Source: Dugong dugon (lineage: Eukaryota; Chordata; Mammalia; Sirenia; Dugongidae). From it: a DNA stretch of 64,000 nt. The notes beneath the pieces were generated by a model. That model searched no databases. It was not told where the DNA came from and worked only from the letters and a program-made list of their open reading frames with translations. Of the stretch, positions 16,413 to 38,309 are shown piece after piece. Positions within the stretch are counted from its first letter, which is position 1. Every line of letters begins with the position of its first letter. Made by a program: the position numbers and the translations under genes. The stretch spans positions 23,358,501-23,422,500 of the forward strand of contig CM057476.1 in assembly GCA_030035585.1 (NCBI GenBank), read 5' to 3'.

Positions 16413-17135
16413 TTAAATATATATATATATTTTTATTGTACTTCAGGTGAAGGCTTACAGAACAAATAGTCTCTCATGAAACAGTAGTACACGTATTGGT
16501 TTATGACATTGGTTAACAACCCCACAACATGTCAACCCTCTAACTTCTGAACATTTTTTTTGGTGAAAATACACATAGCCAAAGATACACCATTTCAAAA
16601 ATTTCTACATGCACAATTCAGTGACATTGACTACGCTCTTCCAGTTGTGCTGCTATTCTCACTAAAGATGAAGGCTTACAGAACAAAATAGTTTCTCATT
16701 TAACAGTTGCTACACATATTGCCCTATGACAATGGTTAACAATCTCACAACACATCAACAATATCCTTACTCAACCTTGGGTTCCGTATTACCGGCTTCC
16801 TTGTCCCCTTCTGCCTTCTGGCCCTTGTCACTGGACTTCTGTACCTCATTAGTCCCATTTGGTTTTATGGGGCTGTCCATTCCCAGGCTGAATGGTGAAC
16901 CTTGGAGATAACTTCACCACTGAGCTAAAAGGGTGTCAGGGGGCCATACTCTCAGGGTTTCTCCAGTCTTCTTTAGGCCAGTAAATCTGGTCTATTTTTT
17001 TTTTTTTTTTTGTGAATTAGAATTATGTTCTACATCCTTCTCCAGCTCTGTCCAGAACCCTCTGTTATGATCCTGGTCAGAGCAGTCAGTGGTGGTAGCT
17101 GGGCACCATCTAGCAGTACTGGGCTCAGTCCGGAT
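16413..17135 (-). mobile_element. L1 3' end insertion private to copy A, with composite tail
   Basis: A 5'-truncated L1 on the - strand, bounded by the target-site duplication CCCCACACTTTTTT (16,399-16,412 and 17,136-17,149). Copy B at 63,398-63,425 has the uninterrupted site. Read on the - strand, the young 3' UTR body runs to CTTCATCTTTA. It is followed by an older-type module of about 115 bases (GTGAGAATAGCAGCACAACT to TTTTCACC plus an A run), then by a second young 3' tail. Confidence 0.88.
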
Positions 17136-17149
17136 CCCCACACTTTTTT

Positions 17150-17758
17150 GAAAATGATTTTATTTATTTTGTTGTTGTTGTTGGGAATATACACAGCAAA
17201 ATATACCCAATCCAACAGTTTCTACGTGTACCATTTAGTGACACTGATTACATTCTTAGAGTTGTGCAACCATTCTCACTCTCCTTTTCTGATTTGTTCC
17301 TCCCCCATTAACATAAATTCACTGCCCTCTAAGGATCTTATCTAATCTTTCGAGTTGCTGGTATAGATTTGATCCCATATAGATAGTTCTGAAAAGAGTA
17401 TAATGCTCAAGGCAGAACTGTTTTACTATAAGCTAAATTATTGTTTGGTTTTAAGAAGACTTCATGGGATATTTTTGGATTAAGGTTTAAAGGTTATCTC
17501 AGGATAGTAGTTTCAGGGGTTCATTCAACCCTCGTGGCTCTAGGATGTCGCGCATCCATGAGAATTTGAAATTCTGTTCTGCATTTTCCCCTTTTGATCA
17601 GGATTCTTGTATGGAATCTTTGATCAAAATATTCGGTAATGGTGGCCAGGCACCATCCAGTTCTTCTGGTCTCATGGCAAAGGAGGCAGTTGTTCATGGA
17701 GGCAATTAGCCACACATTCCATATCCTCCTCCTATTCTTAAGTTTCCATAATACCCCC
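17150..17758 (-). mobile_element. Older L1 3' UTR
   Basis: The + strand shows GTTGGGAATATACACAGCAA, TTCGAGTTGCTGGTATAGAT, TTGTTTGGTTTTAAGAAGAC and ATGGCAAAGGAGGCAGTTGT, an old L1 3' UTR in reverse. The partner is at 63,427-64,000, where the window ends. Confidence 0.75.
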
Positions 17759-17999
17759 ACTTCTGAGCAACCGTCCCTTTCATTGGCAGCACTCAGTGAT
17801 CTGGACACCAGCTACCTTGCTGTTTCTGCCTGTGCCCAAGCACCACCTACCCCACCCCAGCCCCCGCCAGCATCCTTGCCCTGTGGGGCCTTTACCCACC
17901 CTCCTGTCCTTTGCCGACAGAGTCCAACTTGGCTGGGCACTCAAGTAGAGACAGTCCCACCCTCCAGCCCATCTCCCACATCAATATACTCTAGAGAGC
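17759..17999. other. Unique GC-rich stretch between L1 and LIF copy
   Basis: C-rich DNA (CCACCCCAGCCCCCGCCAGC). No gene or repeat family recognised. It would be the sequence downstream of the LIF 3' end. Confidence 0.4.
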
Positions 18000-18016
18000 A
18001 TGCCAAGAGAAGATTC

Positions 18017-18022
18017 TTTATT
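18017..18022 (-). terminator. AATAAA polyadenylation signal
   Basis: The + strand reads TTTATT inside ATTCTTTATTAATTTC, giving AATAAA on the - strand, 3.2 kb downstream of the LIF-copy stop codon. It is a candidate for the original LIF 3' end. Confidence 0.5.
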
Positions 18023-18331
18023 AATTTCTCTTTTTTCTTAAAAAAAAATAAGTATTCCTTCGGTATAAAAAATAAATATTTTCAATATGACATTGAATAC
18101 ATAAAAATTGTCTGTCAATATGAAACATACCCTTAGATACATTCATGAAACAGGATATTTTCACAGAAGGCAAAGTCCTTTCTAGTGGAAAGAAAGGACA
18201 GGGAACATCTAAGGACAATGCCACGTGGTAGGTTCCACTGAGCTAGCAGTGTGCATGGGAATGAGGGCTGGGTCAAGGCAATGGGGGGATTGGAAATGAT
18301 GCTCAGTTAAGAACAGCTGTACCATTTAAAG

Positions 18332-18537
18332 GAGCCCGAGTGGCACAAGTAATTTGCAGGGGGCTGCTAACCCAAAGGTTGGCAGTTTGAACCTACCGAG
18401 CAGCTTCTTGGAAGAAAGGCCTGGTGATTTGGTTCCATAAAGATTACAACCAAGAAAATCCTAGGGAGCAATTCTTCTCTGTAACACATGGGGTCACCAT
18501 GAGTCAGAGGCCAGTTTGACAGCAGCTAACAACATTC
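18332..18537 (+). repeat. AfroSINE-type SINE
   Basis: GGAGCCCGAGTGGCACAAGT, GGTTGGCAGTTTGAACCTAC, CATAAAGATTACAACCAAGA and GGGGTCACCATGAGTCAGAG. It lies inside the presumed LIF 3' UTR, opposite in strand to LIF. Confidence 0.85.
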
Positions 18538-18599
18538 CCCTAACTCAGTGACTTTCAACACTTGCTTCACACTAGAATAACCTGGAGAACAACAAACAA

Positions 18600-19525
18600 A
18601 AAACAGTAAAGCTTTGGCAAGCAGCCCACATGGTACAAAGTTTGAGCGCTTCAACGCTAAACAAAATGTTGGTGGTTCGAACTCACCCAGCGGCTACGCA
18701 GGAGAAACAACTGGCAGTATGCTTCCATAAAGCTTACAGCCCATGTGGGGACTATGGTCTCAGGGAACACCTAGCTCAGTTGGCATGACATAGTTTATGT
18801 AGAAAATGTCCTACATTCTATTTTGGTGAGCAGCATCTGGGGTTAAAAGCCTGTGAGCAGCCATCTAAGATACTCCACTGGTCTCACCCCTTCAGGAGCA
18901 AGGAAGAATGAAGAAAACTAAAGATACAAGGGAAAGATTAGTCCAAAGGACTAATGGACCACATCCACCACAGCCTCCACCACACAAGTCCAGTACAACT
19001 AGACGGTGCCCAGCTACCACTACGGACTGCTCTGACAGGGATCATAATAGAAGGTCCCAGACAGAGCTGGAGAGAAACGTACAACAAAATTCTAACTCAA
19101 AAAAGACCAGACTTACTGGCCTGACAAAGAATGGAGAAACCCTGAGAGTATGGCCCCTGGACACCCTTTTAGGTTCACCCTTCAGCCAAAGATTAGATAG
19201 CCCCATAAAACAAAATGAGACTAAAGGGGCACACCAGCCCAGGGGCAAGGACTAGAAGACAGGAGGGGACAAAATGCTGATAATAAGGAACCCAAAGTTG
19301 AGAAGGGGTGTGTTGACATGTCATGGGGTTTATAACCAATGTCATAAAACAATATGTGTACTAACTGTTTAATGAGAAACGTGTTTGTTCTGTAAAACTT
19401 CAGCTAAAGTACAATTAAAAAAAAAAGATTACAATCAAGAAAACCCTATGCAGCGGTTCTACTCTGTCACTTGGGCTTGCTGTGAAATTGAATCGACTTG
19501 ATGGCACCTAACAACAACAACAAAG
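18600..19525 (+). repeat. AfroSINE-type SINE interrupted by L1
   Basis: The left half (18,600-18,741) has CAGCCCACATGGTACAAAGT and TGGTGGTTCGAACTCACCCA. The right half (19,427-19,525) has GATTACAATCAAGAAAACCC and TTGAATCGACTTGATGGCAC, with an AACAACAACAACAA tail. The L1 3' end at 18,742-19,426 lies between them. Confidence 0.8.
18742..19426 (+). mobile_element. L1 3' UTR insertion within a SINE
   Basis: GGGGACTATGGTCTCAGGGA, AATGTCCTACATTCTATTTT, AATGGACCACATCCACCACA, CTGACAAAGAATGGAGAAAC and the end AGCTAAAGTACAATT plus an A run. It is the same young subfamily as at 9.1, 43.6 and 59.0 kb. Confidence 0.88.
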
Positions 19526-21216
19526 CCTGGACTCCACACAGGACCATTAAATCAGAACCCCTGTGCCTTTTGAGAGGAAATTATTACCTCTCTCAATTCC
19601 AGGGCCCCAGCCCCACACACTGTATCTATTGCAGAGGGCCAGCCAAGCAGGGATGGACGGCCTCTGTCAGGGGAGAACTGCCCCAGTGGAAACCACGGGA
19701 GATGAGGGGGAGGAGGCAGGAGGAGCGACAAGAAAGAAAGATTTTTTTTTAATATATGACTGTTCTACCTCCTCCTCTACTGAGCCCCCCCACCTCCGGC
19801 TCCTTAAAATCATCTCTGGTCCAAGCACATGACCCAGGATGCCAGGAGTGGGTCAATGCCAGCAGAAGAAAATGAGAAAAGAACAGTTTTTTCACACAAA
19901 GTCTCAAAAATTCAGGATGCTGTGTTCAGGGGATGCTAATATGCTAGGGTAGTTCTAGAAAGAGCACTGTGGACAGGGACCAAGGCACAGAACTGGGGCT
20001 GGCGTGGAAGTAGGGGTGGGCAGTGAGACAGTCGAGGGGCCGGGGGTGGCTTGGGAAGGAAGGCTGCCCAGATGTGAGCAGCACAGATGTTTCCTCAAGG
20101 TGCTGAGATGATGGGAGACCAGCAGGCCCAGGGCTCTGGAGTCACCAGTTCTGGCTTTCCGATGAGACTGGCTGTCTTGTAGCTGTCCACAGAGCAGAGA
20201 GATGGGAAGGGTAGCAGGCCAAGATCTGGGACAAAGGTGAGTGTGACCCATGATCTCTGAGCTGAGTCTCCACATCCTAGTCTTGCCATGGAGACAGGTA
20301 ACTCCTGGCCTGGACACAGCCTCCGGGCTTGCTTGCTGCCCGCCTGCCTGCCAGCTAGTGGGACTGGATGAAGTGCTCACAGAACGAGAGAGAAAGGGGC
20401 AAAGTGAATGCAAATCATCATAACCTAATTGGCTGAACTGCTAGGACCGCTGCCACCTGCTCGGGGTTTGAGAAGACCAAATTGGTCCTCTCAGCAGCTG
20501 CCCCAGATTCCAGACTGGAGGCTGTTTCTAGACTTGCCTGGCCCTCAGCCCAAAGGAAAGGATTGGGTTCCTTGCTTCAGAGCTCAGAACCAGGTGAGGT
20601 AGTTTGGGAGCTGGGGCAGCAGGGGCCCGTAGACTCCTGTTCTGAGTGAAGGTGCGTGGGGTAATGCCCCCCTCTCCAGAGAGGAGCAGTGGCTCCCTCC
20701 CCGCTACCCCCCACAGCTCCAGCTTCCTAAGTTCTCCTCAGCCAGGTCCTCAAGTCCTCCCTGGTGTTTGGGACACCCAAGAAGGAGCTTCCTGCTGTGC
20801 AGGAGCATCTTCAGGGGGAGGGTGCTAGGTAAGGACCGTTCCAGGGCCCCTTAACTGCTTTCTTGCCCTTGTCTGCTCAAGGTCTAAAGCCACGCCAGAG
20901 GATCAGGTGTGGGCAGAAGTCCAGTCACACTCCACTCGCCAGCCTGACACCTTGAAGCTTGGCTACCATTTTCCACAGGAAGGGGCACTACATTCTAATT
21001 GGTGCAGTATCGAGGCCATGCCTGAGGAAGTTTTGACCTTGTCTGGCTACCTCCCGGCCCACCCTCAGTGGAATGAACTGGCAGGGAGCCCCACAGTTTC
21101 TGCCAGCAGCCCCACTTGCTCTTAGTGATGACCCTGTGCCACACTGTGAGAGCCCCCTACCTCTAGATCCCGCTCCCAAGATCCCTTGATCCACAGCACA
21201 CTTCAAGATCCTGTGC

Positions 21217-21627
21217 CTAGAAGGCCTGGGCCAGCTCGGCGATGACCTGCTTGTATTTAAACAGGAGCTGACAGCCCAGCCTCTTCTTCTGGAAGACGTA
21301 CTGCTCTGAGGTGTTGAGGCCGTTGATCATGTCGGTCAGTCTCACGTTGTAGGTGTCGCACAGGCGGCAGAGCACATTGCTGAGGATCCCCCGAACGGTG
21401 TCCGCCGTGGAGTTAAGCTTGCTGTGGAGGTTCTGATCTTTGGGGTTGAGGGTCTTCTGTCACTGCATGACATCGTCCAGGGAGAGGTGAAAGTAGGCCA
21501 TGACACGGTACAGCTCCACCAGCTTGTCCTTCTCAGTACTGTTTGCGTGGAAGGGTGGGAAGCTCATCAAGTCTTTGTGGCACAGCCTGTCCACATACTT
21601 GGTGAACGGCTCGCCCTGGGCCGTGTA
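21217..21627 (-). pseudogene. LIF: LIF duplicate, coding exon 3 with internal TGA
   Basis: It starts with YTAQGEPFTKYVDRLC, exactly where human exon 3 starts, continues FPPFHANSTEKDKLVELYRV, and stops at codon 56 (TGA). After the stop the same frame continues [20 protein letters not shown], then [35 protein letters not shown] and AELAQAF-TAG. No other stop or net frameshift is present. A three-nucleotide-neutral change near the stop (see findings) is the only break. Confidence 0.92.
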
Positions 21628-21877
21628 CTGAGGAGCAGAGGGCGGGGGTGGGGGGTGAGCAAGGAAGCAGGTATCCATGTTTCAGCCCTGCCACCGACTC
21701 TTGCAGCAAGCTGTTGTGCCTCAGTTTCCCTGCCTATGGCATGGAGACCCAACTCCATGCCCTGTAGGCGTCTCAAGATGGTCATGAGAGGCAGACGGAA
21801 ATCTGGGTGTGAACACACTTGGTAAAGAATCAAGGCCTCTACCATGCAAGCATTGTTATTTTACTTGTTATTAGTAT

Positions 21878-22088
21878 TGGGAGTCCCTGGGTGGTGGAAA
21901 CAGTTAACGCTCTCGGCTGCTAATTGAAAGATTGGAGGTCTGAGTCCACCCAGAGGTGCCTCAAAAGAAAGCTTTGGTGATCTACTTGCAAAAAATCAGC
22001 CATTGCAAAACCTATGGAGTACAGTTCAACTCTGACACACATGGGGTTGCCATGAATTAGAATGGACTGGTGGCAACTAGTTTTGATT
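21878..22088 (+). repeat. AfroSINE-type SINE in LIF intron
   Basis: GGGAGTCCCTGGGTGGTGGA, GGAGGTCTGAGTCCACCCAG, AAATCAGCCATTGCAAAACC, CACATGGGGTTGCCATGAAT and GGTGGCAACTAGTTTTG. It lies in the intron between LIF exons 2 and 3, on the opposite strand. Confidence 0.87.
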
Positions 22089-22239
22089 TATTTTTAATTA
22101 TGGTGATCTTGTGGAGAAAGAAAGAAAACTGGGGTGCCTCACCTTCAGAGGTGTGCCACACACACTTGCCCTTTCACCCACCTGGGTATCTTTCTGCCCC
22201 CAGGCACCCTCCGCCCACCGTCTCGCTCAAACGTCACCT

Positions 22240-22370
22240 CTCTGAATATCTCCCCCACTTTTCCCTCCTTTGTGCATTTCCATCTGCCTTCAGCTCTACT
22301 GTGATGGAGGAAACCCCAAACCTGAAGTGCCAGGCCTTTTACATTCTCACCAGAGCTCTACCCTGACCTA
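22240..22370 (+). repeat. Possible L2 fragment in LIF intron
   Basis: Pyrimidine-rich sequence with ATCTCCCCCACTTTTCCCTC and GTGCCAGGCCTTTTACATTC. It resembles L2 composition, but the family assignment is weak. Confidence 0.3.
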
Positions 22371-22605
22371 ACCGTTGGGAAGGCTATTGCTGTCTGGGCT
22401 TGGGGCAGGATGTGGGGAAAGCTAGATGGGGTTTAACAAGCCCCTCTTTTTTCTTTCCATCTCCAAAAAGGTCGCCACCCTGGCCAGCACCCCCAGCTCA
22501 GGTCAGTGCAGCCACTACTGATATCTGTAGGGATTCTGCCCACTTCTCCCACCTCAGGCCACACCCTCCTTCCTGGGTCCCCAGAGGTGGGAGGGGATAA
22601 CTTAC

Positions 22606-22775
22606 ATAGGCAACAAAGAGGGCGTTGGCACTACTGTTGAGCTGTTCCAGTTGGTTCTTGACCTGGGTCATGATGTTGCTGGAACATGGGTGGTCCATGA
22701 TGCAGGTGGCCTTGTCAGGAGTGGGGCTCCCTGCCCCATGTTCCCAGTGCAGAACAAGCAGCAGTGACAGGATTG
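22606..22775 (-). pseudogene. LIF: LIF duplicate, coding exon 2
   Basis: The acceptor CCCAG precedes CA ATC CTG, in the phase expected after an exon 1 ending in one base of a Gly/Ala codon. The product reads [16 protein letters not shown] (hydrophobic signal core), then [25 protein letters not shown] and AY at the GTAAGT donor. The frame is intact. An upstream in-frame ATG at 22,798-22,800 lies in the intron and would add MAAFGRLP if the intron were retained. Confidence 0.9.
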
Positions 22776-22785
22776 CTGGGAGTCG

Positions 22786-23335
22786 GCCAAAAGCTGCCAT
22801 GATCAGGATGGTGGGGATGGCAGTTCAAGGCTCAGGTCACTCTGGATGCACTGCGTCTCCACCTACAGTTCTATTGCCACTGTCTCTGTCTCCCTCTCCT
22901 CTACCTTGCTATCCCTGCTTCTCTCCACCTGCTTATATCTCCCAGCACGACACAAGCTGTGCCCACCTACTGACTGGAACCTGGCTCTAGGGTGACACCC
23001 AATCATCTAAGCCTTTCCCTCAGTAAGGCAAAAGCGCCTTGGCCTCTTGGCCTTCTGACTTGAGGGTACCACTCCCCATCTTAATGGAATAGGACATTCC
23101 TATCTGTCCGTCTCCTGAGATAGCTCAGATTCCTAAGCATTTCTTCATGTACATCTGCCTAGAGCAACCCAAATCTCTCAGTCTGGGCTCTCACTGGGAC
23201 CACGGACGATCCTTCGCTGACCCTGTTCATCCTCCCAAACATGCCACCTGTTTTTGGTTCCCCAGGCCAATTGCCCCCTGATTTCCCATCTCCTTCGTCT
23301 ATGTCCTTCCCCAAATATGGCCAACCTCCCTACCT
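22786..23335. other. Region upstream of LIF exon 2 (intron 1 equivalent)
   Basis: Unique sequence on the 5' side of LIF exon 2. I looked on the - strand for an ATGAAGGTCTTGGCGGCAGG-like exon 1 here and up to about 27 kb and saw none. This agrees with LIF duplicates that start inside intron 1. Confidence 0.5.
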
Positions 23336-23562
23336 TTGTTTTTGTTGTTGTTGCCAGTTGTTGTCATCGAGTCAGTTTTGAATCATGGTGACCCATGTGT
23401 GTCAGAGCAGAATTGTGCTCATTGGGTTTGCAATGACTGATTTTTCAGAAGTAGATCACCAGGCCTTTCTTCCGAGGACCATCTGGGTAGGCTCAAACCT
23501 CCAACCTTTTGGTTAGCAGCTGAGCACATTAACCGTTGCACCACCCAAGATCTCCCCTTCTG
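23336..23562 (-). repeat. AfroSINE-type SINE
   Basis: TTGTTGTTGTTGCCAGTTGT tail, then GTCATCGAGTCAGTTTTGAA, AGAAGTAGATCACCAGGCCT and the head at the right end, CCGTTGCACCACCCAAGATC. Confidence 0.87.
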
Positions 23563-23734
23563 CCTAGTATTTGAATTTAGGGCAGAGGTGACACAGAATG
23601 TTCTGTTTCTTCTACCACGAACACTGAGCTCCCTGGGCACAAAGCCTGGCACATGGGGGGTCTTCCCAGGCTTGACCAGGTGAGCGGACAGATGACGGAG
23701 AGAACGTGAAAATGAGTGAACATGAGCAGCATCT

Positions 23735-23878
23735 CTCACCAGCTGAGTGATGTCAGGATGGTCCCTTAGCCTCCCAGGGCCTCAGTTTCCTCATCTGTAA
23801 ACGGAGACAGTCACCTGACCCCACCTTCACAGAGTGGCTGGGAGAAGCTTAGATGGGTGAGAAAACACCTTGTAAACT
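23735..23878 (+). repeat. MIR SINE
   Basis: CACCAGCTGAGTGATGTCAG, CTCCCAGGGCCTCAGTTTCC, TCATCTGTAAACGGAGACAG and AAACTGTAAAGTGCAGGACC. Confidence 0.75.
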
Positions 23879-25209
23879 GTAAAGTGCAGGACCCGCACAG
23901 ACCGTGGGCTTGTGTATCTGGCGGGGTACTTGATGGTTTTGGGAGTCCCCCTGTCCTATTGAGTCCTCCTGAGAGCCCGGATGGAGAAGGCCCAGCTGGG
24001 GACCGGGGCTGCCCTGACACCTCCACCACATGGACAGGAGGCCTCTCTGTCAGGTCTCCTACCAGCCTGGATTCAGGACACCTGAGGCAGAGGAGGAATC
24101 AGCTGTGAGGGTGGTCCTTCCTGCTCCCCCTTCCCAACCAGCTTGGCCTGTGGCCTTGGATCCGAGCTGTCAGAATCCTGCAGGCACAGGGAGAGAGTGG
24201 TCCTTCCCCTGCAAGAGCGTGCAGGTGTCTGGGATTCACTTGGCTTTGTCCATCTCCCCCGGGGTGGGTGGACTGGGTCCTGCTCTCAGAACAGAAGCTC
24301 CCTGCTCACGGGATCCTTCCAGCAACCTTGTGAAGGAGATAGACCAGTGGTCATCATTATTACTCTCGCAATTACACTGATAAGAGAGCTGAGCTCACCC
24401 GAGAGGGACAGCTGCTCATGGTCACAGGACAGGATAGAGGAGAGCCAGGGTGAGGACCTGGGCACCCGGGCAGTGCCCCTTCCTCCTGCTGAGTGAGTGT
24501 TCTTGCCTCCTGTTTGGAGGGTGACCCAGTCACCTATTCTCAGTCCTTTGTTCTCTCTGGCCCAAGGGAGGGCAGACAACAGAACTGCTGCCCTCTCCTC
24601 GGGACCAGAGAATTCCCCAGATACAGCGAGAGCAAGAACCTGGGGCAGAGTGCTGGGGGGCCCTTCTGCCCTGCAGGTGGGCATTTGGGCTCTGTCATTA
24701 TCCTCCCTTTCTGGCCTAGGCATTTGTTTTGTTTTCTCTAGTTTCCTAGTAAAGGGTTTTTTGCAGAACTTCAACAGTGTCTCAGATGAGTGGAGGGGAC
24801 ACCAAGGAAAACCGGATGTGGCTGGCCTTAACGTGGTAGGCGAATTAGTATGGCAGGTATGGCTGGTGCCCTAGATGCTGGTTGGTTGGGGGTGCAGGTG
24901 GGGCACCAATGAGCAGTTTCTATTGGCCGTTGCAGTTTCTATTGCCAGCTGTGAGAAATCATTCAGAAATTTCAAACTAATTCCACAGGTAAGAGGCAGG
25001 CTGTGGGTTTAGCCAGCCAGGCAGGGAGGGGCCAAGACACTGGAACTCACATTGGGGAAAAGGAGTCAGAAACAGCTGGGGGTCGGGCTCCAGTCCCTGC
25101 CCAGTGGCCTCTCCCTTCCCAAGCAGCTGCCTGTGCTGCTGTGGTGATTTGCATTTGGGGGAAAGTTCTAGACTGGTTAGGAGTAATGGACGGAGGGGCT
25201 ACAGGGCAG
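23879..25209. other. Intergenic, gene not recognised
   Basis: GC-rich DNA with overlapping open frames on both strands up to 162 codons, none with a known family motif or paired splice sites. At 24,905-24,950 two ATTGG/CCAAT-like motifs lie close together. Confidence 0.4.
24290..24445 (-). repeat. MIR SINE (reverse)
   Basis: AACCTTGTGAAGGAGATAGA, ATTACACTGATAAGAGAGCT and TGGTCACAGGACAG. Diverged reverse MIR. Confidence 0.55.
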
Positions 25210-25292
25210 CGTTTTCAGACTTCAGTGTGCACACGGATCCCTGGGACCTTACTAAAAGGCTGACTCCCATTCAGCAGGTCTGTGGGTGGGGC
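25205..25292 (+). repeat. MER5-type fragment
   Basis: TTTTCAGACTTCAGTGTGCA, GGGACCTTACTAAAAGGCTG, CCATTCAGCAGGTCTGTGGG and GTGGGGCC. A SINE follows directly. Confidence 0.65.
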
Positions 25293-25500
25293 CGAGTCTC
25301 TGGGTGGTACAAATGGGTAAAGTGCTTGGTTGCTAAAGGAAATGTTGGAGGTTTGAGTCCTCTCAGAGGTACTTTGAAAAAAAAGCCTGGTGATCTAGTT
25401 CTGAAAAATCAGCCATTGAAAACCCCATGGAGGACAGTTCTACTCTGACACACACCGGGTCGCCATGAGTCGGAGCTGACTCGATGGAAACTGGTTCTAT
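25293..25500 (+). repeat. AfroSINE-type SINE
   Basis: GAGTCTCTGGGTGGTACAAA, GGAGGTTTGAGTCCTCTCAG, AAATCAGCCATTGAAAACCC and GGTCGCCATGAGTCGGAGCT. It is inserted in MER5-type sequence. Confidence 0.88.
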
Positions 25501-26190
25501 GCCGAGGGGGAATTCATTTATTTACACTAAATAACCACATGTTCAGAAATAAATATTAATGTCAAAGTGGAAATGAGATGTATTTGTTTCCTTTTAAACA
25601 GCATGTAAGGCTTACAACAGAATGCACACGATAAAAATACTGATAAAATAGATCAAGGGAATCAGAATCAGAGAAAACATAAGCAGACCGATGAAATCAA
25701 CATCACAGAAATAAAATAAATAAATGCTTCAGCTCACACGGGGCCACATAGTTACCATGGCCAAGCTTCAAATCTGGCTCCGAGACTCCTGGCAGCAAAA
25801 GGAAAAAGGGCAATAGGATGTGTTATGTGCTTCTTACGATTTAAAAGGAGGAGGCTTTCCCAAACCTTACGGGAAGCAGAGCCCATCCTGAGCCTGGGTC
25901 TAAAGGAAATTTCTTTTGAGATCCCTGGGTGGGAGAGTGTGAGGGGTGAGAGATGGTTGACTTCCCGCTCAAGGTCGCATTTTCCATTGGGTATTACAGC
26001 CTGAACTTGCTGTGGTCTTTGCAAAAGTTGGTGTCCAATGTCAAATGCAGCCCAATGAAGGGGATTCTACAAGAGGCCAGTGTGACCCAGCACTAAGTGG
26101 GGCTTTAGCCCAATCCAAGGGGAGTCTGTTGAGTCCTAGGGTGGGGCAGGGACTGAACATGCCTTGGAAGCTTCTCACTGCCCCCAGGGT
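25501..26190. other. Intergenic, no gene recognised
   Basis: An AT-rich segment followed by unique DNA. The 90-codon - strand frame at 25,752-26,024 shows no family motif. Confidence 0.4.
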
Positions 26191-26562
26191 TATTTTCTTT
26201 GCTTTTTTTTTTTAAAAAAAAAATTGTGTTAAAAGTATATATAACTAAATATTTGCCATTTCAACATTTTTTACCTTCACAATTCAGTGACATTAATTAT
26301 CATATTGTGCAACCATCACCAGTATCCATTTGCAAATTTTTCCATCACCCTTAAAAACTCAGTGCCCCCTCAACAATGACTCCCCCTTTCCTTCTCCCTC
26401 CCACTCCTAGTAACCACTAATAAGTTTTGGTGGTTATTTGCCAATTCTAGGTATTTCATATAAGTGCAATCATACAATATTTGTCCTTTTGTGACTGTTT
26501 TTTTTTACTCAGCATAATGTTTTCAAGGTTCATACATGTTGCAGCATTTATCAGAACTTGTT
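26191..26562 (-). mobile_element. Older L1 3' end, left part
   Basis: On + the order is CATTTCAACATTTTTTACCT, CAACCATCACCAGTATCCAT, CTCCTAGTAACCACTAATAA and TACAATATTTGTCCTTTTGT, a reversed old L1 3' end. It is interrupted at 26,563 by RTE and SINE sequence and resumes at about 27,790-27,960 (GCTGAATAATATTCCAGTGT). Confidence 0.8.
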
Positions 26563-27560
26563 ACCGTTAGGTGCCATCGAGTCAGTTCCAACTCATAGTG
26601 ACCGTACGTATTACAGAAGGAAACATTGCCCAGTCCTGCGCCATCCTCACAATCATTGTTATCTTGAGCCCATTGTTGCAGCCACTGTGTCAGTCCATCT
26701 CATTGAAGGTCTTCCTCATTCTCACTGATCCTCTACTTTGCCAAGCATGATGTTCTTCTCCGGGGACCGATCCCTCCTGATAACATGTTCAAAGTCTCGC
26801 CATCCTTGCTTCCAAGGAAAATTCTGGCTGTACTTCTTCCAAGAGAGATTTGTTCGTTCTTTTGGCAGTCCATGGTATATTCAATATTCTTCTCCAACAC
26901 CATAATTCAAATGCATCGATTCTTCTTTGGTCTTCCTTATTCACAGTTCAGCTTTTGCATGCATGTAAGGCAATTGAAAACACCATGGCTTGGGTCCAAA
27001 AAAAAAAAAAAAAGAAAAACTAAACCAGTTGCTGTTGGGTGCATTACAACTCATAGCAACCCTATAGGATGAAGTAGAACCGCCCCATAGGGTTTCCAAG
27101 GAGCACCTGGTAGATTTGAACTGCTGACCTTTTTGTTAGCAGCCATATATCTTAACCACTACACCACCAGGATTTCCTGCCTTGGGTCAGGCACACCTTA
27201 TTCTTCAAGGTGACATCTTTGCTTTTGAACACTTTAAAGAGATCTTTTGTAGCAGATTTGCCCAATGCAATGCGCCCTTTGATTTCTTGAATGCTGCTTC
27301 CACGGGTGTTGATTGTGGATCCGAGTAAATGAAATCCTTGACAACTTCAGTCTTTTCTCTGTTTCTCTTGATGTTGCTTATTGGTCCAGTTGTGAGGATT
27401 TTTGTTTTCTTTATGTTGAGGTGTAATCCATACTGAAAGCTGTAGCCTTTGATCCTCATCAGTAAGTACTTCAAGTCCCCTTCACTTTCAGAAAGCAAGG
27501 TTGTGTCATCTGAATAATGAAGTAGTTAATGAGGCTTCCTCCAATCCTGATGCCCCGTTC
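26563..27560 (-). mobile_element. RTE-clade LINE nested in L1
   Basis: The + strand shows CCGTTAGGTGCCATCGAGTC (RTE 3' end), then GCCAAGCATGATGTTCTTCT and GTAAGGCAATTGAAAACACC. After a SINE (27,000-27,180) it resumes with CTTCAAGGTGACATCTTTGC and TTTATGTTGAGGTGTAATCC. On the - strand it reads LSESEGDLKYLLMRIKGYSF and YGLHLNIKKTKILTTGPISN. Stops and frameshifts are present. The part from about 26,735 is duplicated in inverted orientation near 57.5-58.5 kb. Confidence 0.88.
27000..27180 (-). repeat. AfroSINE-type SINE in RTE
   Basis: An A-rich run, then CAGTTGCTGTTGGGTGCATT, CCCCATAGGGTTTCCAAGGA and TTAACCACTACACCACCAGG. It splits the RTE copy. The partner in the inverted arm is at 58,083-58,255. 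Confidence 0.88.
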
Positions 27561-27785
27561 TATCAGACAATGTTCCACTGCTATTCAAAAGGTTTTCACT
27601 GGCTAATTCTTTTCAGAAGTAGACTGCCAGGTCCTTCTTCCTAGTCTGTCTTAGTCTGGAAGCTCAGCTGAAACCTGTCCACCATGGGTGACTCTGCTGG
27701 TATTTGAATACCGGTGGCATAGCTTCCAGCATCACAGCAACACGCAAGCCCCCACAGTACAACAAACTGACAGACACGTGGGGAT
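27560..27785 (-). repeat. Second afrotherian SINE-like unit
   Basis: It contains AGAAGTAGACTGCCAGGTCC, CTAGTCTGTCTTAGTCTGGA, ACCGGTGGCATAGCTTCCAG and the end motif CCCCCACAGTACAACAAACT. The inverted partner is at about 57,485-57,710. Confidence 0.6.
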
Positions 27786-28182
27786 ATCAGAACTTAACTT
27801 CTCCTTATGGCTGAATAATATTCCAGTGTGTGTCTATGCCACATGTTGTTTATCCATCCATGTGCCGATGGATGTTTAAGTTGTTCCTAACTTTAGGCTA
27901 CTGTGAATAGTGTGGCAATGAATGTTGGTGTACGAGTTACCCCCAGGGTTTTACAACCTTTTTACTGATGTCTAATATACTTACAAAATGTACATCGGAT
28001 GACTTCCACCCTCTTAGAAGATTCTATGAGGGCTGGAGCAAGCAGGGAACACATGAAGGATGGCGTCGGGGGATTAGGCTTGGGGAGTGAGTGGGCTTTG
28101 AGTCTTTGTGCCTGCCTCATTCCCTGGCCACTGGTCTGGAGTCCAAACAGAAAGCGTTTACAGGCCACTGGCTTCAGAATCA

Positions 28183-28392
28183 GCAGAGCCCTGGTTGTGC
28201 AGTTGTTAAGTACTTGGCTACTAACTAAAAGGTCGGTGATTCAATCCCACCAGCCGCTCCATGGCAGAAAGATGTGGCAGTCTGCTGCCGTAAAGATTAC
28301 TGCCTTGGAAACCCTATAGGGCAGGTCTACTCTGTCCTAAAAAGGGTTGCCATGAGTTGGAATCAACTCGATGGCAACGAGTTTTGGTTTTT
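28183..28392 (+). repeat. AfroSINE-type SINE
   Basis: GAGCCCTGGTTGTGCAGTTG, GTCGGTGATTCAATCCCACC, AAAGATTACTGCCTTGGAAA and GCCATGAGTTGGAATCAACT. Its inverted partner is at 56,870-57,080. Confidence 0.9.
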
Positions 28393-29262
28393 GGCTTTGG
28401 TGTCGAGGACAGTTCCCACACTGCCACCCACCCTACTGGAGGACCCCACCTGCTCAGCCTGCCTCTGTTCCTTTAACTTGGGGTAGCAGCACCTTACTCC
28501 GGCCTCACTTAAGAAACCAAATATTTCAAATATGAAGACGTGGTCAAGGCCTGCCCACTCCATCTGATCCTCAGTGATCAGTGACCGGGGTGAAGAGAAG
28601 GTCTAGCTCCTGCCCAGATGGTCAATGAATCAAAGCCAGAAAGGTCTCTACCTGTCAGCAGGCTTTCTCCCTGGCCCCGTTCACAAAGTCCCCACCCTCC
28701 ACCCCCACAGGCGGCAGGCAGCCCTCGCAGCTACCTAAAAGGACCATTCTCTGCAGAGGAACATGCTGCATGTGGGGCCCCCATGGTAGCTGTGGGTGTG
28801 GGACTCTTTTCCTCCTCAGCTTGCTCTTCTTGTCCTGTCTTGGGAAGGGGCATCACATACATTGCCCACTGTAGTGAGTTGAATGGTGGCTGCCCAGAAG
28901 ATATGTCCAGAATACACTAGGCTTGAAGGCTAAAGACCATAGACTTGGGGGACATCTATGTCAATTGGCATAACGTAGTGTCTAAAAACAATGTTCTACA
29001 TCCAACTTTGGTGAGAAACCCCAAGGGTATGGACCCCAGACACCCTTTTAACTCAGTACTGAAGTCACTCCTGAGGTTCAACCTTCAGCCAAAGATTAAA
29101 GAGGCAAACAAAACAAAACGAGACTAAATGGGTACACCAGCCCAGGGGAAGGATGAGAAGGCAAGAGAAGACAGGAAAGGTGGTAATGGGCAACTCAAGT
29201 TAGAGAAGGGGAGAATGCTGACATCTTGTGGGGTTGGCAACCAATGTCAGTCACAAAACAAT

Positions 29263-29751
29263 AACCCATAACCTGTTGCCATCCAGTCAATTCCGACTCA
29301 TAGCAACCCTACAGGAACTGTCCTATAGGGTTTCCAAGGAACAGCTGGTAGATTCAAACTGCTGACCTTTTTTTTTTTTTTTTAAAAAGGTGAAGGTTTA
29401 CAGAACAAATAGTTTCTCAGTAAACAGTCAGTAGACATATTGGTTTATGACATTGGTTAACAACCCCAGGACGTGTCAACATTCTCCCTTCTTGACCATG
29501 AAGGACTTTTTTTTTTTTTTTAGTGAAAATATACATCGCCAAAGATACACCATTTCAAAAATTTCTGCATGTACAATTCAGTGACATCAATTACTTTCTT
29601 CCAGTTGTGCTGCTTTTCTCACTGTCCTTTTCCAGATTATTCCATCACCATTGTCTTCAACTCATTGTCCCTTAGGCTTCCCATCAAACCAGTAAACTGC
29701 TGACCTTTTGGTTAGCAGCCAGGCTCTTAACCAGTCCACCACTAGGGCTTC
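29263..29751 (-). repeat. AfroSINE-type SINE interrupted by L1
   Basis: The left part has CCTGTTGCCATCCAGTCAAT and CCTATAGGGTTTCCAAGGAA. The right part has TTTTGGTTAGCAGCCAGGCT and CCACCACTAGGGCTTCC. It is flanked by CACAAAACAAT at 29,252-29,262 and 29,752-29,762. Confidence 0.88.
29372..29693 (-). mobile_element. L1 3' end insertion private to left arm
   Basis: It is bounded by the target duplication AAACTGCTGACCTTTT (29,356-29,371 and 29,694-29,709). On the - strand an older-type module (AGAAAAGCAGCACAACTGG to CACT plus an A run) precedes a young L1 3' tail. The SINE in the right arm (55,884-56,036) lacks this insertion. Confidence 0.85.
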
Positions 29752-30224
29752 CACAAAACAATGTGTGTATTAATTGTTTACTGAGAAACTAATTTGCTCT
29801 GTCAACCTTCATCTAAAGTACAATAAAAAGAAACAAAAAGAGTCTTTGCAGATGTAGTTAAGTTAATGATCTCAAGATAAGATCTCCCTAGATTATCTAT
29901 TGAGCCCTAACTGCAATGACAATTATCCTTAAAAGAGATGCCCAGAGGAGAAGCGTGGGGAGAAGAGGAGAAGGCCGTGTGAAGACAGGCAGAGATTGGA
30001 ATGATGTGGCCACAGCCCAGGAAGCCTGGAGCCACCAGAAGCTGGAAGAGGCAAGGGATGGATTCTCCCCCGGAGTCTTCAGAGGGAGTGTGTCCTTACT
30101 CACCGCTTGATTTCAGACATCTAGCCTCTGGAAGTGTGAGAAGATAAATCTCTGTGGTTCTAAGCCAACCAGTTTATGGTCATTTGTTAGGTGGTCCTAG
30201 AACACTAGTATCTGTCATCCGTAT

Positions 30225-30480
30225 CAGGTGTGTCCAAATCAACGTCTACATGGCCTGAAGCTGTCCCCTCCTCTCTCCTCCCTGCCCCAGGCTGTCATTA
30301 CTTCTTTCCTGGACTAGTGCAACAGCCTCCAGACTGTCTCCCTGCCTTCAGCTCATCCCCTTCCATTCGGGCCAAACCTCCTCCTCATTCCAGAAGTTTT
30401 CACAACTCCTGGTCAAATTGCTGAAAGGGTAAGACCACCCGCTTTCTGTGGACCACAATCTAGTTCCCAAATTCAAGCCT
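30225..30480 (+). repeat. L2-like sequence
   Basis: CCTGGACTAGTGCAACAGCC, CCAGACTGTCTCCCTGCCTT and TTCCAGAAGTTTTCACAACT have the character of LINE2 3' sequence. Duplicated in the right arm. Confidence 0.5.
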
Positions 30481-30596
30481 GACTTGATGGAACCCCACTC
30501 AGAGGGGCCCCACGCTTGGTTTAATGCTCTGCGGTTGCCATCTTGAAATTCTGAATTGTTTTTGGAAAAGGAGCCTGCATTTTCGTTTTGCACTGG

Positions 30597-30813
30597 TTGA
30601 AACCAGTTGCCATGCAGTCAACTCCAACTCAGGGTGACTCCATGTATGCCAGAATAGAAGAACAGAACTGTGCTCCATAGGATTGTCTATGGTTGGTTTC
30701 TCAGAAGTAGATCTGCAGGTCTTTCTTCTGAGGTGCCTCTGGGGGGACTTGAACCTCCAACCTTTCAGTTAGAAGCCGAGTGCATTAACCATTTGCACCA
30801 TTCAAGGACTGAT
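30597..30813 (-). repeat. AfroSINE-type SINE
   Basis: AACCAGTTGCCATGCAGTCA, CATAGGATTGTCTATGGTTG, GAACCTCCAACCTTTCAGTT and ATTTGCACCATTCAAGGACT. Inverted partner at 54,825-55,042. Confidence 0.88.
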
Positions 30814-30821
30814 TTTGCACC

Positions 30822-31034
30822 AAAACAAACAAACCCATTGCTGTTGAGTTGAATTGATTCTGACTCATGGTGACCCCATGAGTGACAGAGTAGAACTGCT
30901 CCATTGGGTTTTCTTGGCATCTTTAGAGAAGCAGATCATCAGGCCTTTCCTCTGCAGCTCTGCTGGGTGCATTTCAACCTCCAACCTTAAGACCTGTAGT
31001 CACGCATAAACCATTTGTATCACACAGGGGCCTT
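30822..31034 (-). repeat. AfroSINE-type SINE
   Basis: CAAACCCATTGCTGTTGAGT, TGACTCATGGTGACCCCATG, GGGTTTTCTTGGCATCTTTA and ACCATTTGTATCACACAGGG. Inverted partner at 54,598-54,812. Confidence 0.88.
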
Positions 31035-31129
31035 TGTTATGTACCAGGTCCTGCAAATCATTTAGCCGCCCTGCTCAACTCAACCTTCTCAGCTTGCCTA
31101 CTCCCACACCCCTTCCCTCAGCCTTGGCA

Positions 31130-31398
31130 GTAGCTTGGAGGTCTGTTAAATGTCACGTTCTCTCACCTCTCCATGCCTTTGCAGAGGCATTTTCTCCTTT
31201 ACGTGAAAAATTCTGTTCCTTCAAGACCCAGCTCAAATGTTTCTTCCATGAAGTCTTTCTTGAGTCCTTCAGGTTTGACACTTAGGTTCATTTTAGCTCT
31301 GATTATATATTTGCTCAGGGCTCTAGCACTCACCAAGCCCTTCCTTTATATGATCATGTTTTATGAGAACAAAGACACCTACTGTTTATTGAAACACC
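31130..31398 (+). repeat. L2 LINE fragment
   Basis: CCTCTCCATGCCTTTGCAGA, CTTCAAGACCCAGCTCAAAT, TTCTTCCATGAAGTCTTTCT and GATCATGTTTTATGAGAACA, a typical LINE2 3' region. It starts just past the inverted-duplication breakpoint. Confidence 0.75.
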
Positions 31399-31409
31399 TA
31401 GTATGCACA

Positions 31410-31630
31410 GACGCGAGCCCTGGTGGCACAGAGATTAAAGCACTCAACTACTATCCAAAAGGTTAGCGGTTCGAACCCATCAGCCGCCTCTCAAGAGAAA
31501 GATGTGGCAATCTGCTTCCATAAAGATTACAGCCTTGGAAACCCTATGGGGCAGTTCTACTCTGTCCTACAGGATCACTATGAGTTGGAATCGACTCAAC
31601 AGCAGTGGGTTTGGGTTTTTGTTGTTGTTA
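31410..31630 (+). repeat. AfroSINE-type SINE
   Basis: GCGAGCCCTGGTGGCACAGA, AGCGGTTCGAACCCATCAGC, TAAAGATTACAGCCTTGGAA, ACTATGAGTTGGAATCGACT and a TTTTTGTTGTTG tail. Confidence 0.92.
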
Positions 31631-31834
31631 TTTTTGGTATTATGCACAGAGCACGGGTAGATGGCTTACCCAGGTAATGGGTAGAACCCAGACAGCCACG
31701 TCCGCATCCCTGGGAGCTCGCCCACCCCCCACCACTGAGCTGGGATCTGCATTTCAGTGCTGTCATCGGGATTCCTGTTCATTTGAGTCTGCGAAGCCCC
31801 GCAGCACGGCACCCGGCACAGAGGGCCAGGATTT

Positions 31835-31998
31835 CCACACGTCTGGATATGGATCCTGGCTCTGCCCTTTCAGCTGTAGGAGCTTTGGCAAGTTTCTTAA
31901 CTTTCTGTGCCTCAGTTTCCTCATCTGTCACATGACCCTCATATGGCCATTGAGAGACTGAGTGAGAGAATGCTTAGCACACAGTAAGCACATGGGTT
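31835..31998 (+). repeat. MIR SINE
   Basis: TCTGGATATGGATCCTGGCT, GCCTCAGTTTCCTCATCTGT and ATGCTTAGCACACAGTAAGC. Confidence 0.8.
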
Positions 31999-33222
31999 AG
32001 TTGGCCAGGTCTCATCTGAATACTCACACTGCACCTGCCTACCCCCTTACTGGAACATCTACTCTGCTCTTAACTTACTTTTAGAACCCCCACAAGCCCT
32101 CACCATGGTGACCCTCCTCAGGGAAACCTCAGCTCTCCTATAGGCAGCAGAGGAGATACTGGGGTGCAATGTGGTAGCTCCGTCTCCCTACACCCAGCTC
32201 TGACTCTGGCTGAGGACCCAGCCCTCAGTATATCCCACTCAGTTCAGCCTGCCGCATTCTCTGCTTCCTGCAGGAAGACCAGAGTCGCCTCCCCTTCCCC
32301 CAGAAGCCCCCAGTAGGTCCTGCTTCCCAGAAGCAGTGAACCCCCGAGAGAGATACTGGAGGAGGGGAGCCGGGTGTGAGGTCAGCCCCACGTCAGCCCC
32401 TCTCCCTTTCCCACCGTGGCTGGGAAGAGGCTGCTGAGTGGGTGCCAGCCACGGGAGAGGTCTGGTCCTCTGCTCCTGGCCAGGTCACAGGCCAGTGTGC
32501 TGAGCAATAGCCAGGCCAGGGGTAGGTGTTCTCAGCTTCCAAGCTCCTCTCTGTCTGACCATCAGGACCCATCCCCAACCCCACAGCGAAGCAGCTGCCA
32601 CGGGCTCTTCCAAGCAGGTGAGGTCATTGTCTCCGCCAGACCAGCCTGAAGCGAAGAAGTCAGCCACCCATGTGGGAGGAATCACACATCCCTGCTCCCT
32701 GGCCAAATGCCCTCCTGCTACAGCCCTGGGCCCCAATTCCTCCACTTCATTCCTCAGAGTGGAGTTCAGGAGCTGCTCCCGAACACCTGTTGGAAGAACT
32801 GAGCTGGGCTGGCTGGAAGAGAATTATAGGGCAGGAGTGGGATGCTTGTTGAAAAGACAGATTCCTGGACCACTTCAGAGTCCGCTTTAGTCTGTGAGGA
32901 GAGGCCACAGAAACGGCCTTTGACAGCTCTGGGGGATTTGGTGCACAGACAGGTTCCAGAACCTCTGGCTTCAAGCCTCATTTGCTGCCTACAGAACAGA
33001 GCTGCATCGCTGGTGTTTATTCTCTGCTCAAAGCGATTTTTATCACAGCTTGGCCAACACAAACCCCTTCTTCTGCTCTTCAGGGCTTCCCCATAGTGTC
33101 TGGTCCCAGAATGTTTTTGCCAAAGGCTTGGGGGACTTGGCTCGTGGCCTCTGGAGGGGTGAGTAGTGAGGGTTCACCAGTTAGTCCCTCGAGGAGCTTC
33201 AAACCTCTGCGTTAGTCAAGAT
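31999..33222. other. Unique intergenic DNA, no gene recognised
   Basis: GC-rich DNA without visible exons of a known family. Several short open frames on both strands overlap, which argues against coding. Confidence 0.45.
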
Positions 33223-33442
33223 CAGTCCTTCTCAACTGGGGGCAATTTGTCTCCCAGAGGACGTTTGGCAAGCCTGGAGAAATTTTTGGTTCTCACAACT
33301 GGGACAGGGGGTGCTACTGTCATCTAGTGGGTAGAGGCCAGGGATGCTGCTCAAAATCCTACAATACACAGAACAATCCTCCCACCGTAAGAATTATTCT
33401 GTCCAAAATGTCAATCAATAGTGCCAGGGTTGAGAAATCCTG
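33223..33442 (+). repeat. MER20 hAT element
   Basis: CAGTCCTTCTCAACTGGGGG, AATTTTTGGTTCTCACAACT, GGTAGAGGCCAGGGATGCTG and the end GTTGAGAAATCCTG. It is close to the full MER20 length of about 219 bases. Confidence 0.88.
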
Positions 33443-33689
33443 GCCAGAACGCATCCATTGATTACTCCATCATCCCCCAACTCCTAATTGGCTCCCAGAC
33501 TTTGGGGAGTCAAATCCAGCCCTCCAGAAACTGACCGTCTAGCTCAGTGGCTTCAGGTCCTGTTTGTCTCCAGGGAAAGCTCGGGGTTGGGAGCCAAGAG
33601 GCCTTTTGTTCTAGTCTCGGGCAGGCATCCTCATCACGGTGTGCCCTGGACACCTCATTTCCCCTCTCTGAGCCTCGGTTTTTACACTG

Positions 33690-33895
33690 TAAAGCAAGCT
33701 TGGTGTAAGAGAGACCACAGGCTTTAGAGCCAGCTGCCTTGGGTTTGGATCCTGTCTCTGTCCCTGACCAGCTATGGGAAACTGGACTCATTCCTTTCTT
33801 TCCCTGAGTGACCATTTCCTCATGTGTAAGGTGGGGACCCCACATCTCACCTCACAGGACTGCTGGGAAGATGAAATGAGATAGTAGACACAGGG
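33690..33895 (+). repeat. MIR SINE
   Basis: GGTGTAAGAGAGACCACAGG, TTGGGTTTGGATCCTGTCTC, TGACCATTTCCTCATGTGTA and GCTGGGAAGATGAAATGAGA. Confidence 0.85.
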
Positions 33896-34004
33896 TGTCC
33901 AGCCCAGGTCACCCATGAGGCCCTTCCTTGGACAGTTGTTCTCTTCCCTGCTTGATTCAAGGTTCATTCCAACTCCCAGAGTTCTCCCCAACTCCACCAG
34001 TTTA

Positions 34005-34262
34005 GGGTTGTCAGATAAAATATAGGATGCTGCAATTCAAATTTAATGAGATGCCCTGTATTTTTCTTTGCTAAATTGAGCCCACCACCTGTTTTTATAA
34101 ATAAAGCTTTATTGGAACACAGCCACACCCATTATTTATATATTGTCTGTGGCTGCTTTTTGCACTACAACAGAGTTGAGTAGTTGCAACAGAGATAGTA
34201 TGACTCGAAAAGCTTAAAACAGTATCTGGACCTTTACAGAAAAAGTATGCCAACCCCTAATC
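34005..34262 (+). repeat. Ancient hAT-type MER elements
   Basis: A TAGGGTTGTCAGATAAAATA unit is followed by TAAATAAAGCTTTATTGGAA, ACAGCCACACCCATTATTTA and GCCAACCCCTAA. Both are common old mammalian DNA-transposon derivatives. Exact families not assigned. Confidence 0.6.
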
Positions 34263-34591
34263 TATGCTCTGCTTATCACAAGGTGGTCTGGAAGTAATTC
34301 CCTGAGGGTGGTGGGGCGTGTGTCTGGAGCACATGGAGTAACAGCCCCTTTTTTTGGGAGGTGGATAGAGGAGATTAGTGAAGAAGAAGGCGGGCCCCTT
34401 GGTCATCCTGGGGACACAGCCTGGAAGAAATTGGAAAGTGTATGGGCCCAGGGGACAGGAACCTGGGTTCTAGAGCTGGTCCTTTGCTGACTTTGAGAGG
34501 CCTTGGGGAAGTCCTTTCCCCTCCCCTCTCTTGACCTCGGTCGTTCAATCCTTCATTTGTTCAAGAAATATTTATTAAACACCTACTAAGT

Positions 34592-34806
34592 GCTAGATGG
34601 AGTCCTTGCATTGTGCAAACTGTTAACGTACTCGGCTGCCAACTGAAAGGCTGGAGGTTGGAGTCCACTCAGAGGTGCCTCAGAAGAAAGGCCTGGTGAT
34701 CTACTTCCGAAAAATCAGCCACTGAAAACTCTATGAGCACATTTCTACTGTGACACACAAGAGGTTGCTGTGAGTTGGAGTCGACTCGAGGGCAACTGGT
34801 TTTTAC
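34592..34806 (+). repeat. AfroSINE-type SINE
   Basis: GGAGTCCTTGCATTGTGCAA, GGAGGTTGGAGTCCACTCAG, AAATCAGCCACTGAAAACTC and TGAGTTGGAGTCGACTCGAG. Confidence 0.9.
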
Positions 34807-35972
34807 GTGCTAGACGCTGCTAGGTATGGATCCTGCTCTCATGGGCCTGACACTGAAGTAGGATGAAAAATAGAGGAGTCCACGAGAGGGTGTCAGCTGG
34901 CGATGAAATGCCTTGGAGGAAATAGTGAGGGAGCAGGGACAAGGCGGGGCGGGGGGGGGGGTGTTGCCTTCTGAAGAGTGGCATTGAGTAGAGACCTGAC
35001 AGCGGAGGTGGAGCCTCAGTTTCCCCATTCGCTGCCTCCTAGGGTCACCCAGGGCTGCTTAGAGTGGGAACACTTCAGCTCTGGCCAGGAGGCAGTGGTT
35101 CTTCTAACCCCTTTGCACAAGACCCTTGAGAGTGGCACCTTTTGTCTCCCCTCTGTCTGGACAGGAGTGGCCGTGGACAGCAGGGTTGTCACCCTGATGG
35201 GGGTGGGCTGAGGAGTGAGGGAAGAGGAGGGGGCAAAGGGAACAAGGGCCCAACCTGACCATAGCCAGCAGTGACCTCCTGTTTTCCTGTGCCCATTCCC
35301 AGGAGGAGTGTCCTGTCCATGTGTTCACAGCTGGCCGGGCAGGCCAGACCCCAGTGGATGGGCTGGAAGACCCAGGGGTCACAGGGGGTGGGGGACTGCC
35401 CTTTGTGGATTTCCTGCAGGCGCACCTCAGACCCTCTGGCCGACTGGGCTACTCTTGGAAAACTGGGCCAGATGCTTGCTCCCAGCCCCAAAGGACAGCC
35501 TGGGCACGACCCCCTCTAAGCTGACAACCTGGGTGTCCTCAGTGATAGGAGACATCGCCCAGGCCCGTCTGGCTGGGAGCTGGTGGTTGAGGGTGGTGGC
35601 GTGGCAGTGGGCAAACCCCACCATGATCCCCTCGTCCCCCAGAACACCCAGCAACATCCAGCCCCTGCCCCGTATCTCCTCTTCCACATAGGAGCTGCCT
35701 GGTTCTAATCTTTTTCCTCTGGACCCGTCTTCCGCAGGATTAATTGGGTCAGGTAATTGCCATCAGCTTAATGCACACACTGCTAGGTGACACAGCCTCA
35801 ACTTAATCGGGGCCCTCAGTGCCCTAAGACAAGTGAGTGACTAATGGTGCAATTCCAGGCAAGGGGCCAGTCCACAGGGAGTAAGGGGCCTGAATTACAG
35901 TGTGTCTGAGAAAAACGCCCTTCCTCGTGGACAGGACTTTAAAGTTTACTAATTTAAAACTCATCTCATAGT
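34807..35972. other. Unique DNA including a homeodomain-motif-rich stretch
   Basis: No gene recognised. GC-rich frames of up to 127 codons at 35.2-35.7 kb overlap on both strands. At 35,738-35,860 the composition turns AT-rich, with GGATTAATTGGG, GGTAATTGCC, GCTTAATGC, CTTAATCGG and CTAATGGTGC, a possible regulatory element (inference). Confidence 0.4.
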
Positions 35973-36845: not shown

Positions 36846-36899
36846 ACTCATCCTACAGACATTCACTTACTTAATTTCATTAAGTAGGGAGAGGTGAGT

Positions 36900-36985
36900 C
36901 TCATTTTAGACTTTCTTCCCTTCTTCCTTCCTTCCCTCCTTCCTTCCTCCGTCCCTCCCTCTCTCTATTTCTTTCTTTCATTGAT
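36900..36985. repeat. CTTC-type simple repeat
   Basis: Tandem CTTC/CCTTC/CTCC units (TTCTTCCTTCCTTCCCTCCT). Confidence 0.9.
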
Positions 36986-37755: not shown

Positions 37756-37759
37756 CCCA

Positions 37760-38290: not shown

Positions 38291-38309
38291 TCTGGTCCCC
38301 AGGGTCCGC

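Follow-up and report, generated by a model that had tools for sequence, protein, structure and literature searches.

Duplicates of LIF in elephants were reportedly described by Vazquez et al. in 2018; one of them, LIF6, is said in the title of that work to be upregulated by TP53, and a TP53 response element is said to drive its expression. LIF6 lacks the exon 1 and the start codon of its parent and is translated from a downstream start, and of the 13 LIF copies known from elephants, 4 are given for the manatee (both statements according to PMC7952090). The window considered here, which is the whole stretch of 64,000 nucleotides that was analysed (C19:23358501-23422500 in a dugong genome of 3,158,355,915 bases and 196 contigs, searched as a whole), carries one LIF duplicate, named T1. 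No second copy was found in the 64 kb by blastn with both exons at E 1e-3, and two close siblings, T2 and T3, lie just outside. T1, like LIF6, is a duplicate of LIF; no exon 1 was found in it, and it has a candidate start ATG. The differences are that T1, T2 and T3 (the trio) are recent sisters embedded in direct and inverted repeats, and that the stem of the trio shows an excess of amino-acid change. The likeness to the manatee lies in the presence of sirenian LIF duplicates, of which one or more carry a premature stop; here, 14 duplicates and the canonical gene are seen in one chromosome-scale assembly. A literature search of limited depth, over sources available in part, returned no description of a sirenian LIF trio or of selection on it.

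The host differs from elephants also with respect to TP53. African elephants have 19 TP53 retrogenes, and the rock hyrax and the West Indian manatee one each, according to PMC5061548. A p53-domain search of the present genome gave 11 matches, read as exons of TP53, TP63 and TP73, and one retrogene-like copy, these counts being lower bounds. An elephant host was rejected on this comparison, and the elephant frame in which the initial annotation had placed the locus does not hold for a genome with one such retrogene found. Nor does the trio show the regulatory mark associated with LIF6, since a simple consensus scan of the 3 kb upstream of T1, T2 and T3 gave no p53-like site with two or fewer mismatches. 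The same scan upstream of 14 loci found one site in all, at the duplicate L017. Sites with up to three mismatches numbered 8 at window positions 21000-27000 as compared with 3.5 in shuffles, and the best of them (two mismatches) lies beyond the 3′ end of T1. A separate search with cytochrome b gave nuclear matches only, on contigs C3, C4, C8, and C9; a long one on the minus strand (C4:135757282-135757806), in which all stops are TGA, has the look of a rather recent insertion of mitochondrial DNA into the nuclear genome.

The coordinates of the features are collected in Table 1.

Table 1. Features of the T1 locus (window coordinates) and related loci elsewhere in the genome (contig and position).
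Feature	Position	Strand	Remarks
LIF coding exon 3 of T1	21217..21627	-	411 bases, one in-frame TGA; similarity, Pfam and PDB match
Premature TGA	21460..21462	-	Private to T1; cysteine codon in both siblings
Intron 2 of T1	21628..22605	-	With AfroSINE-like element (~21881-22082)
LIF coding exon 2 of T1	22606..22775	-	170 bases; lacks 9 bases, in frame, that human and canonical LIF have
ATG and 25 bases in frame	22776..22800	-	Joined to exon 2; possible start with signal-peptide-like leader
Segment with direct repeat	17135..25419		Repeat at 63408-71669 (95-96%, holds T2); only 63408-64000 of it inside the window
Arm of 37.5-kb inverted duplication	21154..58536		Other arm outside the window, at window coordinates 72939-110345, ends in T3
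T2	C19:23425965	-	Sibling, 46 kb from T1
T3	C19:23468373	+	Sibling, 89 kb from T1
Canonical LIF (L016)	C19:22447075	+	Exon 1 present
OSM	C19:22425755	+	PF01291
L012	C19:33522190	+	Open exons, upstream ATG
TP53 retrogene-like copy	C23:29147664-29148022	-	With TAG

The two minus-strand LIF exons of T1 have AG acceptors and a GTAAGT donor, and their phases are compatible. They were recovered where the initial annotation had placed them, as were the 411 bases of exon 3, the six cysteines (6/6 of those in mature LIF), and the single in-frame TGA. T1 thus has the exon 2/exon 3 structure and phase of LIF; its frame is closed before the end of helix D by the TGA, in contrast to T2 and T3, where it runs through. 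Its identification as a LIF duplicate is supported by Pfam, PDB, and genome-wide matches. Both parts of exon 3 exceed the cut-off of 23 bits for LIF_OSM (PF01291), with 37.7 bits and, for the part after the stop, 74.6 bits, and the latter part also matches human LIF chains in a PDB search (E 8e-28); exon 2 alone stays below the cut-off (14.9 bits). The human length applies exactly to exon 3 only, as exon 2 is 9 bases shorter than in human owing to the deletion of three codons in frame. Relative to the human LIF coding sequence, the exons of T1 give Ka 0.24 and Ks 0.45 (ratio 0.54). Human LIF has six N-glycosylation motifs, of which three, read by eye, are missing from T1. The stop is codon 56 of exon 3 and codon 121 counted from an ATG at 22800-22798, which shortly precedes the exon 2 acceptor and has A in position -3 and G in position +4; the 19 residues read from this ATG have the appearance of a signal peptide. 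Canonical LIF also has an in-frame ATG shortly before its exon 2 acceptor, with the same bases in positions -3 and +4, which is a possible alternative start. Intron 2 of T1 carries an element of the family that we take to be AfroSINE, and one of a similar kind occurs in canonical intron 2 (the copies were matched by self-comparison).

T1 shares exons 2 and 3, splice sites, cysteines, and receptor-contact residues with canonical LIF, which differs in having exon 1, a low replacement rate (omega 0.14-0.28 across set-ups), and no 9-base deletion. A processed (retro)pseudogene was rejected because T1 retains intron 2 together with a portion of intron 1, both alignable with the canonical gene. Oncostatin M has the Pfam family and the chromosome in common with T1, but T1 is far closer to LIF; when the window was searched with an OSM probe, nothing matched at E below 0.7, so that another cytokine, closer likeness to which would have spoken against the initial annotation, was rejected. 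Viral contigs scanned with the end of exon 3 contained no relative.

A genome-wide search with LIF exon 3 gave 15 matches, every one on C19, corresponding to one canonical gene and 14 duplicates, and the 17 matches to PF01291 are the same LIF loci plus OSM, one locus being split into two pieces. Exon 1 (19 bases, up to four mismatches) was found in one of the 15 loci, the canonical one, where it is identical to the human 19 bases, and in none of the 14 duplicates over the stretches examined. In 13 of these 14, similarity to the canonical locus sets in within intron 1 (positions 5688-5899 of that locus), the exception being L022, which retains the exon 3 side only; in 13 of 14 it stops about 340-410 bases past the stop codon, extending further in L017. 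Many duplicates are alike beyond these limits. The shared borders and the wider likeness among duplicates point to descent from one truncated founder that was later copied in larger units. The normal stop is TAA in canonical LIF and TAG in the duplicates, where an apparent one-base insertion is an alignment artefact. Ten of the 14 duplicates, T1 among them, either have damaged exons or are missing exon 2, and the exons of the other four (T2, T3, L012, and L014) are open, L014 being without the upstream ATG. L012 is a candidate functional duplicate on sequence grounds, with an omega of 0.24 at free branch lengths (omega = 1 rejected, 2dlnL 7.8); with tied lengths, it does not differ from broken copies (1.5).

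T1, T2, and T3 form one clade with full support in a tree of the copies in which some deep nodes reach only 31-48. In exon 3, T2 and T3 are 98% and 97% identical to T1, and both are open over all 201 codons from the upstream ATG to the normal stop. The presence of a sense codon at the TGA site in siblings so similar bears out the earlier suggestion of a late-decaying copy. A TGA requiring several base changes, as the human alignment alone had implied, was dropped once the siblings were seen to be one base apart.

The trio lies in a block where direct and inverted segmental duplications form a mosaic. The inner inverted arms (about 33-58.5 kb; window 33000-58536, 25 kb) differ by 0-0.5% per kb, which may reflect either gene conversion of a palindrome-like kind or an event of very recent date. 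Over the outer 12 kb, where LIF lies, the difference climbs from 1.4% to 5-7% (range 1.4-7.3%). The sequence between the arms contains no run of N. Self-comparison of the window revealed a second inverted duplication, 26726-31121 against 54512-58536, with 89-93% identity. A 0.7-kb repeat at about 16413-17133, flanked by what by eye seems a short target-site duplication, is absent from the paralogous place near 63408. Site patterns along the LIF region alternate between T1=T2, T2=T3, and T1=T3, from which gene conversion within the trio is evident at the sequence level, and it could distort distances. T2 and T3 differ at 11 of 973 positions in intron 2 and 16 of 581 in exons; the trend is opposite for T1 and T2 (66/972 and 8/581). 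Selection as the cause of exons changing more slowly than introns within the trio is weakened by these opposed trends, which indicate that gene conversion is in play.

The tree and the dN/dS analysis that the initial annotation had proposed were carried out on the copies of this genome, where the trio came out as the clade described above and its stem showed an excess that is clear against noncoding lengths and marginal against synonymous sites. A codon model of the GY94 type was applied to 14 copies, L022, which has lost exon 2, being excluded from all codon models and from the dead set, and eight broken paralogues served as the yardstick. With codon lengths tied to those of introns and flanks, omega was 0.14 for canonical LIF, 0.47 for the broken copies, and 1.30 for the trio stem, i.e., with neighbouring introns as the reference, the stem has about 2.7 times as much amino-acid change as the eight broken paralogues. 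Equality of the stem and broken rates is then rejected (2dlnL 33.2 and 32.7 in two topologies), also when codons near the 9-base gap are dropped (37.6) and with each yardstick taken singly (intron 1, 49.6; intron 2, 18.2; 3′ flank, 49.9). With free branch lengths, omega was 0.25 for canonical LIF, 0.47 for the tips of the eight broken copies, and 0.92 for the stem (0.92-1.01 across set-ups), and the excess of the stem over the broken copies is marginal (2dlnL 3.24 for trio equal to dead; 3.76 for stem equal to dead with double changes modelled). An omega of 1 for the stem is not rejected, either free (2dlnL 0.03) or tied (2.65 and 2.27). The broken copies, too, have an omega significantly below 1 (2dlnL 33.7), due to constraint during part of their branches or to CpG effects, so that 0.47 sets the bar low; when omega is instead fixed at 0.7 for the comparison, the tied excess is 12.9 in the single-change model. 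Within the trio, omega is 0.26 with tied lengths, below that of the broken copies (2dlnL 6.4), and 0.70 with free lengths, where it does not differ from 1; gene conversion renders these within-trio values unsafe.

The residues that changed are not spread evenly. Trio-specific residues were defined as those common to T2 and T3 and absent from the other copies (T1 and L022 not counted), human, and mouse. With helix borders and receptor-contact positions of LIF as we assume them to be, such replacements fall in helices A, C, and D in 5 of 26 cases, compared with 68 of 146 in the eight broken copies (Fisher p 0.0098). Of these replacements, 14/26 fall where human, mouse, and canonical LIF are conserved, versus 105/146 in the broken copies, with no significant difference (p 0.10). 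At the cysteine and receptor-contact positions, T1 and T2 keep 17 of 18 residues (6/6 cysteines and 11/12 contacts, K153 being changed), and T3, in which L59 is changed as well, keeps 16 of 18 (10/12 contacts).

Taken together, we assign a probability of roughly 0.7 to the reading that T1 is a truncated LIF duplicate whose coding trio ancestor diverged adaptively and was triplicated, T1 being silenced late. Most of the doubt concerns the ancestor. The lineage of the trio might have been non-coding since the founder duplication, drifting neutrally with T2 and T3 open by luck and the TGA as the first hit. A stem omega indistinguishable from 1 is what such drift would give, and it accords with the lack of a detected exon 1 in any duplicate, with the ten copies that are broken or without exon 2, and with L014, open and devoid of the upstream ATG. 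We nevertheless consider it somewhat unlikely, as the stem has more replacement than the broken copies once codon lengths are tied to noncoding ones, and the replacements avoid helices A, C, and D. Lesion counts bear on the same question: five sister pairs show 77 frameshifting gaps per 1401 noncoding substitutions (0.055 per substitution), and a random change creates a stop in 2.5-3.1% of cases, so that by hand arithmetic a neutral stem of 0.081 predicts about 4 lesions. The chance of seeing zero is about 0.01-0.02 before allowing for the choice of this lineage among about 12; since the trio stands out among that many, the zero is weak evidence and by itself not decisive. It is less probable still, and in our view unlikely, that the stem excess stems from mutation or gene conversion, through clustered multi-base changes or an unsampled diverged donor, with selection playing no part. 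Mosaic patterns are present in the trio, its copies have 32-33 codons with at least two differences from the canonical gene (10-27 in the broken copies), and a model with double changes fits far better (delta 0.03). The tied excess, however, survives that model (2dlnL 22.2; 7.05 against the fixed omega of 0.7), and, while dS/Knc of the trio to the canonical gene (1.36-1.48) is inside the range of the other copies (0.87-1.48), dN/Knc is the highest in the trio (0.90-0.98 versus 0.42-0.76 in broken copies).

Doubts about T1 itself carry less weight. That an assembly error or polymorphism accounts for the TGA, with T1 intact in other individuals, is quite improbable, and a sequencing error as such is unlikely. 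The codon is one base away from that of the siblings and a single assembly was examined; on the other side, the dugong assembly paper gives HiFi data and a quality code of Q70 (PMC10936554), provided that the assembly is the same, and T1 has many private intron differences and is therefore not a collapsed sibling. We regard it as very improbable that T1 is still useful, either as a truncated secreted peptide or as a full-length protein made by stop readthrough: its stop is in the last exon, the TGA is followed by C, and private exon changes are few (6 of 202 codons, the stop included), but a protein that ends at the stop has neither helices C and D nor the LIFR contacts and is short of three disulfide partners.

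On the reading of late silencing, the trio ancestor probably coded for a secreted LIF-like protein, a ligand that would have kept the receptor-contact core and changed fast in the loops and helix ends by adaptive divergence before it was triplicated. Selection on this ancestor is supported but not proven by the codon and residue patterns. If T1 is transcribed, its mRNA should escape nonsense-mediated decay, the stop being in the last exon; the product of about 120 residues, devoid of helices C and D, the LIFR site, and disulfide partners, should not signal. The initial annotation had regarded T1 as a non-functional copy, and T1 is indeed broken; it does not, however, belong to a simply decaying pseudogene lineage, because two siblings are open and the common stem has an amino-acid excess. 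T1 is a freshly silenced member of a fast-evolving, probably once functional group of LIF paralogues.

A more far-reaching proposal, to which we would give less than even odds, is that a sirenian LIF paralogue became a new secreted ligand of the gp130/LIFR family under positive selection and was amplified to a trio, of which one member has just been lost. It would combine rapid change of loops and helix ends near the LIFR-binding face and a conserved helical core with a large inverted repeat, near-identical inner arms, and gene conversion. The LIF duplicates of paenungulates are cited, with elephant LIF6, as part of the answer to Peto’s paradox. If the proposal of a new ligand is true, elephants would not be the sole paenungulates with a re-used LIF duplicate. 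With 14 LIF duplicates, one TP53 retrogene found, and a lineage that looks selected, it becomes possible to ask whether LIF may gain functions without TP53 expansion, and T2, T3, and the copy at C19:33522190 are concrete candidates for RNA and receptor-binding work.
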